From Erysipelotrichaceae bacterium (GTDB lineage: Bacteria; Bacillota_I; Bacilli_A; Erysipelotrichales; Erysipelotrichaceae), in NCBI GenBank assembly GCA_015058955.1, contig SVBJ01000014.1, positions 1-47,072 on the forward strand: a stretch of DNA of 47,072 nucleotides, given 5' to 3'. Shown piece by piece: positions 2,254 through 5,322 of this stretch. The notes below the pieces were generated by a model. That model searched no databases. It was not told the origin of the DNA and was given only the letters and a program-made list of their open reading frames with translations. Each line of letters opens with the position of its first letter. The first letter of the stretch is position 1. Made by a program: the position numbers and the translations under genes.

Positions 2254-3178
2254 GACGGAAATCAGAGATGCCTATGGCAAGGCCCTTGTCAGACTGGCAT
2301 TAAGCAATCCTGATGTAGTTGTTGTGGATGTCGATGTTTCCAAGCCGATCAGATCAGCGGAATTTGAAAAGGTGGCACCGGAAAGACACTTCAATTTCGG
2401 TATTGCTGAAGGCAACATGATGGGCGTGGCAGCAGGACTGGCCTTAAGCGGCAAGATTCCTTTTGCCAACAGTTTTGCAATATTTGCAGCTGGGCGAGGC
2501 TATGAACAGATCAGAAATTCCATTGCTTCACCGCATCTCAATGTCAAGATCGTCGGTTCTCATGCCGGATTCTCACCGCGCATTGACGGGGCAAGTCACC
2601 AGTGTCTCGAAGACATTGCTTTGATGAGAGTATTGCCGGGTATGACGGTAATTCAGCCATGTGACGAAAGAGAAACCATTCAGGCGATTCAGGCTGCCGC
2701 TGAATTCAAAGGACCTGTATATATCAGATTAAGCCGCAGCCGGGTTGAAGATGTCTATGATGACGATTACAGATTTGAGCTGGGTAAGGCCGTAGTACTG
2801 CATGAAGGAGAATCGGCGGTTGTGATGTTTGCCAGCGGTACGATGGTACAGCGTTCATTGCAGGCGGTTGAACTGCTTAAGCGGAAAGGAATTGATCCTA
2901 CGGTGATCAATGTTCATACGATAAAGCCTCTGGATCAGGAAACTGTATTGAGATTCGCTGAAAAAGCTTCGCTGATAGTAACTCTTGAAGAACACAGCGT
3001 CATCGGAGGACTAGGCGGGGCCATTGCGGAATTACTGGCAGCACACTGTCCGAGAAAACAGCTGTTTATCGGAGTACATGACCAGTTCGGTGAAACAGGA
3101 ACAGTGGAACAACTGTTTGAAAAGCACGGTCTGACCGCTGAAAAGATCGCTGAAAGCATAGAAAAAGCAACCTTATAG
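2246..3178 (+). CDS. transketolase, C-terminal (pyrimidine-binding) subunit
   Basis: This is the second half of the split transketolase (310 residues). It has the pyrimidine-binding domain with the FNFGIAEGNMMGVAAGLA segment, whose Glu normally activates thiamine diphosphate, the central SHAGFSPRIDGASHQ segment, and a C-terminal transketolase domain (TLEEHSVIGGLGGA). The frame is open upstream to 2198, but ATG 2246 is chosen because MSKTEIRDAYGKAL is the usual family start and a GGGGTGA ribosome binding site precedes it. The gene is followed by a strong terminator. With rimO it forms a three-gene transcription unit. Confidence 0.93.
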   Translation: MSKTEIRDAYGKALVRLALSNPDVVVVDVDVSKPIRSAEFEKVAPERHFNFGIAEGNMMGVAAGLALSGKIPFANSFAIFAAGRGYEQIRNSIASPHLNVKIVGSHAGFSPRIDGASHQCLEDIALMRVLPGMTVIQPCDERETIQAIQAAAEFKGPVYIRLSRSRVEDVYDDDYRFELGKAVVLHEGESAVVMFASGTMVQRSLQAVELLKRKGIDPTVINVHTIKPLDQETVLRFAEKASLIVTLEEHSVIGGLGGAIAELLAAHCPRKQLFIGVHDQFGETGTVEQLFEKHGLTAEKIAESIEKATL

Positions 3179-3196
3179 TTGCTCTAAAGACATATG

Positions 3197-3224
3197 AAAA
3201 GTGCTGTATTTCAGCACTTTTTTG
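3197..3224. terminator. bidirectional intrinsic terminator
   Basis: AAAAGTGCTG (3197-3206) pairs perfectly with CAGCACTTTT (3212-3221) around a 5-base loop. There is a T run on the plus strand and an A run upstream that serves the minus strand. It separates the convergent transketolase and XRE/S24 genes. Confidence 0.9.
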
Positions 3225-3226
3225 AT

Positions 3227-3835
3227 TTAAGAGAACTTTATGCGGTTGTGGAGGACCTTGCCGACGATCCTGACCTGTTTTTCCTGCTGATCTTCTCTGG
3301 TGAGAACGATCGGTTCATAGTTTTCGTTGGCAGGTTCCAGGATCATGGCGTCATCGGTATACTTTACATATTTGACAGTTGCTTCATTATCAATCAGGAC
3401 AACTCCGATGTCACCGTTGTCAAGGTAATCCTGCTGTCTGACATAGATCAGATCCCCCGGAAGAATGCGGGCGTCCTTCATTGAATCCCCGGTTACTTCC
3501 AGATAGAAACAGTTACCGTGAGCGGCATCATCAGGAATGACATGTTCAAAGCCCAGATAGTTCTGATCAGCCAGGATAGGGGTACCGCCTCTGACCAGCC
3601 CAAGCACCGGGATCTCATTGGATGGTCTGACAGTAAGGTCAATGTTCATGATGTCATCGACTTCAACATTAAACAGCTGAGCTATCTTCTGAATGGTCTT
3701 ATATGGCGGGACAGCTGATCCGTCTTCCCATTTCTGAATGGTAGTAAAGGAAGTATATCCCAGATGTTCAGCCAGAAAAGGCTGAGAGTAATTGTTCTTT
3801 CTTCTCAGAAATCTGAGGTTCTTGCCAAAGTTCAT
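3227..3835 (-). CDS. LexA-like repressor: XRE helix-turn-helix plus S24 peptidase
   Basis: This 202-residue regulator has an XRE-type HTH at residues about 5-60 (LAEHLGYTSFTTIQKWEDG) and an S24 self-cleavage domain. The catalytic Ser lies in the GDSM motif near residue 114 and the Lys in EATVKY near residue 150. A linker and cleavage-site-like segment, GLVRGGTPILA, lies between them. The architecture is that of phage CI-like and LexA-like proteins that self-cleave on RecA filaments. The HTH is XRE rather than the winged LexA type, so it may be this lineage's SOS repressor or a dedicated stress repressor. The ATG at 3835 has a GGAGG site. It is divergent from a small gene, with palindromes over both promoters. 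Confidence 0.88.
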   Translation of the reverse strand: MNFGKNLRFLRRKNNYSQPFLAEHLGYTSFTTIQKWEDGSAVPPYKTIQKIAQLFNVEVDDIMNIDLTVRPSNEIPVLGLVRGGTPILADQNYLGFEHVIPDDAAHGNCFYLEVTGDSMKDARILPGDLIYVRQQDYLDNGDIGVVLIDNEATVKYVKYTDDAMILEPANENYEPIVLTREDQQEKQVRIVGKVLHNRIKFS

Positions 3836-3858
3836 AGTAAAGCCTCCGTTTAACTTTA

Positions 3859-3887
3859 TTATAATTCATATTGAAAACAAATCAAGT
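3859..3887 (-). promoter_or_regulatory. promoter of the XRE/S24 gene with a candidate operator in its spacer
   Basis: On the minus strand, TTGATT (3881-3886) and a perfect TATAAT (3859-3864) are 16 bases apart. The partial palindrome TTCATATTGAA (3866-3876; TTCA/TGAA arms) lies between them, the expected place for an autorepressor site. Confidence 0.65.
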
Positions 3888-3904
3888 ATTTTCAGGATAA
3901 CACA

Positions 3905-3933
3905 TTGAATCATATTCAAGTAATGGTTATAAT
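3905..3933 (+). promoter_or_regulatory. promoter of the 74-residue gene overlapped by a perfect palindrome
   Basis: TTGAAT (3905-3910) and TATAAT (3928-3933) are 17 bases apart. The palindrome TTGAATCATATTCAA (3905-3919, 6-3-6) covers the -35. The -10 ends 6 bases before the ATG at 3940, so the transcript is probably leaderless. Confidence 0.7.
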
Positions 3934-3939
3934 AAAGAT

Positions 3940-4164
3940 ATGAAAACAGCAGTAGATGTCATATGCCTTTATCCGCAGAACGGATTAATAAAACCGTTAT
4001 TCATCATCTGGAATAACGGTGCAAGATATCCTATTGATTCTGTTGACCAGATCGTTCCGGTCGCTGACGGGGAAGTATGCGGAGTGCGCTACAGCTGCCG
4101 CTTGGGCAAACATCAGCGTTACCTGTTTCTGGAGAACGGTAAATGGTTCATTGACAGATCATAG
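3940..4164 (+). CDS. small protein divergent from the S24 repressor, possibly damage-inducible
   Basis: This protein has 74 residues and no signal peptide or membrane segment. Its pattern (GLIKPLFIIWNNGARYPID near the N-terminus, VRYSCRL, then RYLFLENGKWFID at the end) resembles small proteins encoded beside dinB or lexA-like genes in several Bacillota. That resemblance is from memory and was not searched. The gene has its own promoter, apparently under the control of the divergent S24 repressor, and no Shine-Dalgarno. It overlaps the convergent TraB-like gene by 6 bases. The composition, strong promoter and well-formed beta-rich sequence argue that it is a real gene. The function is unknown; an SOS accessory role is inference only. 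Confidence 0.72.
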   Translation: MKTAVDVICLYPQNGLIKPLFIIWNNGARYPIDSVDQIVPVADGEVCGVRYSCRLGKHQRYLFLENGKWFIDRS

Positions 4165-4177
4165 TTTTTCTATGATC
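4157..4177. other. hairpin spanning two convergent stop codons
   Basis: GATCATAG (4157-4164) pairs perfectly with CTATGATC (4170-4177) around five T. The stop codons of the small gene (TAG 4162-4164) and the TraB-like gene (TGA, minus, 4159-4161) both lie in the left arm. There is no following T run, so it is not a classical terminator, but it could block read-through or stabilise 3' ends. Confidence 0.6.
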
Positions 4178-5322
4178 TTGGAGAAGATGTTCAGTCCGCT
4201 CAGTATCGTACCAAGCGTACTGCCTACATTGGCCAGAATGACGACCATCAGGACCTTCAGGACTCTGTTGGAGAAGAATGTCTTAACTGAACCAAGGTCA
4301 TCGGAAACCTTCTGAAAATCCTCGACTGTAGGTTTTCTGATGTAAGCCTCTGTCAGACCGGCAAACCAGCCGGCTGCCAGTAAGGGATTCAGAGATGTTA
4401 TCGGGGCAACCAGGAAAGCAACCAGAATGGAAATGATGTGACCGCCAGCCAGAAGTGTACCCAGGGCGCTGGCAGTTCCGTTGAACAGGATCCAGGTCTT
4501 GATCTGCTGTAATCCGATCTCCTTATCCTTGCTGAAGGAGAACAATATTAACAGGATGATGGCCACTGGTAATATCCAGGATGCGATCCTGCTGGCAGTG
4601 CTTTTAGGAGGGATCTCATCGAACTCCTTTATATCATAATCTTCATTAATATGCTTCTGAACGCCAATGGTATGCGCAGCACCCATGACTGCCACGATAT
4701 TGGTACCGGGTGCATTTTTGATTTTATAGGCAAGATACTTGTCTCTTTCCGTAATCAGCACTTCAGCAACATTAGGGAAGGCCTTGGATACTTCTTCCAG
4801 GGCAGCACTGAGTGCTTCGGACTGCTGCAGGTTATTGAGTTCCTGTTCAGATATTTCCTCGTCGTCAAAGATGGAAGAGACAATTACATTTAATAATCTG
4901 ATCTTATCCTTAGCAGTAAGCTTGCGCCAGGTTCTCTTGAAGGTGGTCTGGATATTGCGGTCAGCCAGGACCAGATTGGCTCCTGACTGTTCTGCCTTGT
5001 TCATGGCCGTGATCATTTCATTTCCGGTCTGTGATCCCAGATGCTTAGCCAGTCTTTTCTGATAACTGCCCAGGATCAGGTTAGCCAGAACATAGCCGAC
5101 TCTTTTTTCCTTAATGATCTTTACAATGTCGGTATTTTTGAATTTGTCCGGATTCTTCAGGGATTCATAACGGCTCTGATCCAGTTCAATGCAGATGGTA
5201 TCCGGCTGCAGTTCATCAATGGTAGCCGCAACCAGTTCGGCACTGTTCTTTGATACATGTGCTGTCGGTATCAGTGTTATGTTCTTTCCGTTGCATTCCA
5301 GTTTAATTACTTCAATATCCAT
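4159..5322 (-). CDS. TraB/PrgY (TIKI-like) family membrane protein
   Basis: This 387-residue protein has an N-terminal soluble TraB domain and four or so C-terminal membrane segments (from SRIASWILPVAIILLILFSF onward, residues about 245-385). The family motifs PTAHVSKNSAE (near residue 18) and GAAHTIGVQKHI (near 216) contain the conserved His residues shared with TIKI-type metalloproteases. PrgY of Enterococcus limits pheromone activity, but most members have no known job. The frame is open to 5454; ATG 5322 is chosen because it has an AGGTG site and a promoter directly upstream (TTGCCA, 16 bases, TATAAT). It is divergent from the c-di-AMP cyclase operon. Confidence 0.85.
   Translation of the reverse strand: MDIEVIKLECNGKNITLIPTAHVSKNSAELVAATIDELQPDTICIELDQSRYESLKNPDKFKNTDIVKIIKEKRVGYVLANLILGSYQKRLAKHLGSQTGNEMITAMNKAEQSGANLVLADRNIQTTFKRTWRKLTAKDKIRLLNVIVSSIFDDEEISEQELNNLQQSEALSAALEEVSKAFPNVAEVLITERDKYLAYKIKNAPGTNIVAVMGAAHTIGVQKHINEDYDIKEFDEIPPKSTASRIASWILPVAIILLILFSFSKDKEIGLQQIKTWILFNGTASALGTLLAGGHIISILVAFLVAPITSLNPLLAAGWFAGLTEAYIRKPTVEDFQKVSDDLGSVKTFFSNRVLKVLMVVILANVGSTLGTILSGLNIFSKIIEKL

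Follow-up and report, generated by a model that had tools for sequence, protein, structure and literature searches.

Does a phage-like repressor found beside a small divergent gene govern its own locus only, or does it instead serve an entire bacterial lineage as that lineage's SOS repressor? The question is raised by a 47,072-nucleotide stretch of DNA from an Erysipelotrichaceae bacterium, here described as the window. Within it, profile matches identify a gene for a 202-aa repressor, consisting of an XRE helix-turn-helix (HTH) plus an S24 domain, at 3227-3835 on the minus strand. Divergent from this gene is one for a 74-aa, predicted all-beta protein of an unnamed family, at 3940-4164 on the plus strand. 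An earlier note had viewed the pair as a self-cleaving repressor that controls both itself and the 74-residue protein, that is, as an SOS-like switch, and both open reading frames are indeed as that note described them. The answer argued for here, as judged from sequence, is that the 202-aa protein very probably is the SOS repressor of its lineage, one which has replaced a lost LexA and which acts via ACTTGAA-N5-TTCAAGT boxes.

The place that such a repressor would fill appears to be vacant. No LexA scored above cut-off in 60 relatives, and the LexA winged HTH (PF01726) has no match in the window's own genome. Among 196 genomes of the order, the LexA DNA-binding domain was seen in two, both times as a short fragment, with controls (E. 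coli, B. subtilis, others) positive, and LexA is present in other families of the same class. These two fragments (G138, C49:20243-20497, with TGA and TAG stops inside a longer match; G450, C216:11334-11525) are short open frames of 80-96 aa, are the only LexA DNA-binding-domain matches in the order, and, going by their sequences, look like decayed lexA remnants.

Between the two divergent genes of the window are two sigma-70-like promoters. That of the small gene, TTGAAT-17-TATAAT, spans 3905-3933 on the plus strand (-35 from 3905, TATAAT ending at 3933) and matches 10 of 12 consensus positions. That of the repressor, TTGATT-16-TATAAT, spans 3858-3885 on the minus strand (-35 from 3885, TATAAT ending at 3858). 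Palindromes had been noted over both. The first, TTGAATCATATTCAA at 3905-3919, does cover the -35 of the small gene, with its TTGAAT starting at 3905. The second, TTCATATTGAA at 3866-3876, does sit in the spacer of the repressor promoter, but an operator role for it does not hold: it is off register, overlaps the in-register site at 3869-3887, and is not the conserved unit. Shuffling of the window's intergenic stretch, moreover, yields a perfect 6-N3-6 palindrome 7.4% of the time, so that a single palindrome is weak evidence and conservation must decide.

Conservation here means that seen over 33 repressor promoters, i.e., those of the window and of orthologues from family genomes. From these comes a 19-bp operator consensus, ACTTGAA-N5-TTCAAGT. 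Every one of the 33 promoters possesses a 19-mer with at most two mismatches to this consensus, as compared with 0.17% of shuffles, and 10 of them possess a perfect box. The window's own sites are two to three mismatches off. Operator O1, CATTGAATCATATTCAAGT (minus strand ACTTGAATATGATTCAATG), lies at 3903-3921 over the small-gene -35 and has two mismatches, while operator O2, TATTGAAAACAAATCAAGT (minus strand ACTTGATTTGTTTTCAATA), lies at 3869-3887 over the repressor -35, in register with relatives. The window's own box has, against shuffles, a P of 0.0015. The centres of O1 and O2 are 34 bp apart, and in many relatives a second box is found 22-34 bp from the first. What the sites share is TTGAA-N5-TTCAA with ACTTG/CAAGT arms. 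The TTGAA/TTCAA arms of the palindrome as first described therefore stand, but its CATATT centre does not, the centre being variable and AT-rich.

Failure of the palindromes to be conserved in relatives had been named in advance as grounds for abandoning the idea, and the main operator is instead kept throughout. With boxes over both -35s and retention across the 33 promoters, it would appear that the repressor controls the small gene as well as itself, the latter via the palindrome that its promoter carries. The DNA-contacting segment of the repressor, SFTT(I/V)QKWE, is nearly invariant among orthologues, as is expected if the operator is conserved. A search of the window for a Bacillus-type SOS box found none, in agreement with the earlier note's view that the operator is a different one. 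The literal motif which that note would have had searched, TTGAAT-N3-ATTCAA, nevertheless is too strict in its centre and lacks the outer arms. Allowing two mismatches, it occurs 7 times in the window versus 6.2 expected, which is chance level; with one mismatch, its other matches in the genome are nearly all intracoding and the recA box is missed.

That recA box is seen upon use of the genus form of the operator, ACTWGAW-N5-WTCWAGT, in pattern searches of the window's own genome (1.78 Mb). There are exactly two perfect matches, one upstream of pgsA-cinA-recA (C24:4141) and the other upstream of a YolD-like gene (C8:62150; PF08863 by profile match), though the choice of W for position 4 was made in part after these recA and yolD sites had been seen; the independent test is that with the family consensus, which was learned from repressor promoters only. 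In the pgsA-cinA-recA box, TTGAAT doubles as a -35, with TAAAAT following 17 bp on. A box with one mismatch precedes a gene for an impB/mucB/samB (IMS-family, i.e., Y-family) polymerase, as identified by profile match (C30:12047). At up to two mismatches there is no bulk enrichment in this genome (37 versus 85 for the control), and the signal resides only in perfect and one-mismatch intergenic sites. One-mismatch boxes are seen as well upstream of rarA (G000:C1:31674-31692; L194 675-693) and of mraZ (G000:C22:27490-27508; L120), and these two genes are possible extra targets of the repressor.

With the family consensus, perfect boxes number 40 over 115 genomes, versus 3 for a control pattern. 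The repressor locus itself accounts for 28 of these. Seven of the remaining 12 are upstream of dinB (followed by the small protein; G008, G019, G068), of uvrA (G077, G034, G044), or of pgsA-cinA-recA (G098). Another is at the end of mutS, just 5' of mutL, and four are without clear link. Boxes with one mismatch are found in relatives upstream of uvrB, of an HhH-GPD glycosylase gene, of dinB, and of further recA operons. Within the genus, perfect boxes number 20 versus 2 for the control: six at the recA operon, two at the uvrA operon, three at yolD, one at dinB/repressor, seven at an IS element, and one, at a contig end, unassigned. Outside of the IS element, that is, 12 of 13 are upstream of recA, uvrA, yolD or dinB. 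Candidate operators are found, in short, before recA, uvr and Y-family polymerase genes, as would be looked for with an SOS repressor. The expectation that the motif would be found near recA, uvr and dinB is thereby borne out, at the recA operon and a polymerase gene in the window's own genome and at uvrA, uvrB, dinB and recA in relatives, even if not with the exact motif that had been suggested for the search.

The IS element just mentioned is multicopy and carries an IS605 OrfB/TnpB-like gene, and at its edge is the perfect box ACTTGATTTATATTCTAGT. It is found at loci L211, L212 and L215-L219, in same-genus genomes G115, G071 and G116; at L217 the ACTTGATTTATATTCTAGT box is directly upstream of the IS605 OrfB/TnpB-like gene. 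This may be an SOS-responsive transposon, or instead the box may be a chance match that has been copied along with the element.

What, then, is the small protein? It has no family match in Pfam, NCBIfam or PHROGs, and the YolD profile (PF08863) matches none of 12 members of its family. Core residues V, G, P, W, I, C, L and W are the same in all 12 when these are aligned. Compared with the SH3-like beta-barrel core of the UmuD'/YolD fold, the AlphaFold model likewise is made up of strands: it is all-beta, with seven strands and a pLDDT of 89.5; a Foldseek comparison of this model with the PDB gave no match at E <= 0.001, and the best structural VIA Z is 4.6, to unrelated proteins. As to the company that the gene keeps, in several genera it is found directly after dinB, which is where members of the family usually are. 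The divergent neighbour of the repressor is, in relatives, variously dinB, an SRAP/YedK-like gene, or the small protein again, with these partner identities based on sequence signatures (HCDLNxFYASVE, MCGRY) and with profile scans having been applied to regulon genes only. In some genera the divergent unit continues, past the small protein, with the SRAP/YedK-like gene (MCGRY start; L026, L029, L036, L037). In a genome of the same genus, G118, it is dinB which is the divergent gene at the repressor locus, and the window's species appears therefore to have lost dinB from that locus while keeping the small gene. At L189 (G043; 2483-4719) and at L184 (G125; 2385-4568), the gene that diverges from dinB and the small protein is also an XRE/S24 gene, but one that differs in its recognition helix and lacks an ACTTGAA box, so that the gene pair may predate the ACTTGAA operator.

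This neighbourhood suggests that the small protein acts with a Y-family polymerase. From a different perspective, it could be viewed as an antirepressor, or as a Cro-like second transcription factor, rather than as a repair protein. Phage CI/Cro switches have a divergent gene layout, and placement of the small gene beside but divergent from the repressor does resemble such layouts. The protein, however, is without an HTH and is predicted to be all-beta. In G019 and G068, furthermore, its gene follows dinB at sites other than the repressor locus, and on plasmids of Clostridia relatives of it come after DNA polymerase IV (L190 3492-3731 and L191 3483-3734; Oscillospiraceae, Monoglobus). The antirepressor or Cro-like role is for these reasons unlikely. 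A more ambitious proposal can be put forward, and that tentatively, as something possible rather than probable. This is that a widespread family of small beta-fold DinB subunits exists, of which the 74-aa protein is the first to be recognised, making for an SOS-induced, two-part DinB mutasome in UmuD-less Bacillota. Its control would lie with a phage-derived repressor that has rebuilt a complete SOS regulon around a new operator, with the subunit kept at the present locus and dinB gone from it.

For the repressor to serve as an SOS switch it should be inactivated upon DNA damage, and this is where the protein itself is informative. It has an XRE HTH (PF12844/PF01381) along with Peptidase_S24 (PF00717, E 1e-25). 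Only over the S24 half does it match the curated LexA model, at 91.9 bits versus a cut-off of 110.95. Canonical LexA proteins carry PF01726, in place of which this repressor has HTH_19/HTH_3; as with canonical LexA, it possesses S24 along with a Ser-Lys dyad. Ser118 (codon 3482-3484) aligns with E. coli LexA Ser119, and Lys155 (codon 3371-3373) with Lys156. The equivalent of the scissile bond, Ala84-Gly85 in E. coli LexA, is Gly83-Gly84 (3584-3589), which is not the Ala-Gly or Cys-Gly of canonical LexA. The dyad and the second of these glycines (P1') are invariant over 33 repressor sequences, and RecA-triggered self-cleavage is, from this invariance, likely. The P1 residue varies among the orthologues, being G in 22, A in 6, T in 4 and C in 1.

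We infer from the above the following sequence of events, in terms of DNA binding, RecA-dependent cleavage, induction and small-protein role. Repressor dimers would bind the boxes over the -35s of their own promoter and of that of the divergent small gene, and would bind as well the boxes at pgsA-cinA-recA, at the YolD gene and at the Y-family polymerase gene. DNA damage would give rise to RecA filaments, and these would prompt self-cleavage, by Ser118 and Lys155, between Gly83 and Gly84. All of the boxed promoters would then be freed, and the small protein would be made alongside, and would probably act on, error-prone Y-family polymerases.

The repressor might instead be an S24 stress regulator of these same repair genes, one whose trigger involves no RecA or no cleavage, as is reported of IrvR of Streptococcus mutans. 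The Gly-Gly at the scissile position, as a departure from Ala/Cys-Gly, would fit with this, and a LexA-like protein that is independent of RecA has been reported (PMC7101444). Set against it are the already noted invariance of the dyad and P1' Gly, the occurrence of Ala-Gly or Cys-Gly at this position in some orthologues, and a regulon which is of SOS type and which includes recA itself. Such a trigger consequently seems quite improbable. Least credible is that the locus is an immunity-type switch of a prophage remnant, with an operator that controls the repressor locus only. In its favour, the architecture is phage-like, the best matches outside of the host group are CI-like repressors of phages (37% identity), and a quick tree with phage repressors and LexA places phage repressors nearer than LexA, with moderate support only. 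Against it, the locus is flanked within the window by housekeeping genes, 90 of 115 family genomes have an orthologue, nearly always as a single copy, there are distant boxes at recA, uvrA, yolD and polymerase genes, and the partner genes of the repressor are SOS rather than phage genes. The repressor, on its genomic distribution and setting, is a host gene and not that of a passing phage.

An SOS repressor of phage type, taking the place of LexA, is how the locus consequently is best described, and as such it has company. HdiR, regulators of Bacteroidetes, and FddR all are phage-type S24 repressors that have taken over SOS control (PMC8565304, PMC13148647). A search of our literature library for an SOS regulator of Erysipelotrichaceae found no paper. 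If the present interpretation is correct, then a family of gut bacteria is added that has recA and excision repair, and not mutagenic polymerases alone, under a phage-type repressor. In addition, there would be a concrete operator from which to predict the DNA-damage and mutagenesis response of Erysipelotrichaceae, and a conserved small protein is marked as a candidate polymerase subunit.

In comparison with canonical LexA/DinR (Bacillus, E. coli), the S24 half aligns, including with Ser119 and Lys156, and target genes are shared, but the repressor here is without PF01726, goes with another operator, and has Gly-Gly replacing Ala-Gly. HdiR of Lactococcus and Streptococcus likewise is an XRE HTH plus S24 protein of LexA-less Bacillota, and controls itself along with Y-family polymerase genes; in S. 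thermophilus, it is reported to control cinA-recA as well (PMC8565304). The L. lactis HdiR operator consensus, however, is tttATCAGtTtttCTGATaaa (ATCAG...CTGAT; PMC1592510), which is unrelated to ACTTGAA-N5-TTCAAGT. HdiR regulons, in addition, are described as minimal, whereas here uvrA and uvrB too are boxed in relatives, and the HdiR hosts are of a lineage other than Erysipelotrichaceae. The non-canonical LexA-like S24 regulators of Bacteroidetes similarly combine a phage-type HTH with S24, palindromes of fixed N5 spacing, and a classical SOS regulon with dinB, but their motifs are GGA-N5-TCC or CTAA-N5-TTAG (PMC8565304). As they are reported to be exclusive to Bacteroidetes, the Erysipelotrichaceae repressor would be an independent case. 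FddR of Francisella is a co-opted phage S24 repressor, regulates itself together with a gene of unknown function that diverges from it, and controls dinB in some Francisella species, but it has a GTG-N11-CAC operator, a small network, and a lambdoid origin (PMC13148647).

For the small protein, YolD and UmuD' are precedents as small partners of Y-family polymerases (PMC6511836, PMC12926913). Like YolD/YqjX and UmuD', the 74-aa protein is small, adjoins dinB in relatives, and is, as predicted from its boxes, SOS controlled. Unlike YolD/YqjX, it lacks PF08863, and the same genome has a separate YolD under a box of its own. Control of SOS by phage-type S24 repressors thus is known in itself, and what is new here is the lineage, the operator, and a classical regulon that includes recA and uvrA.
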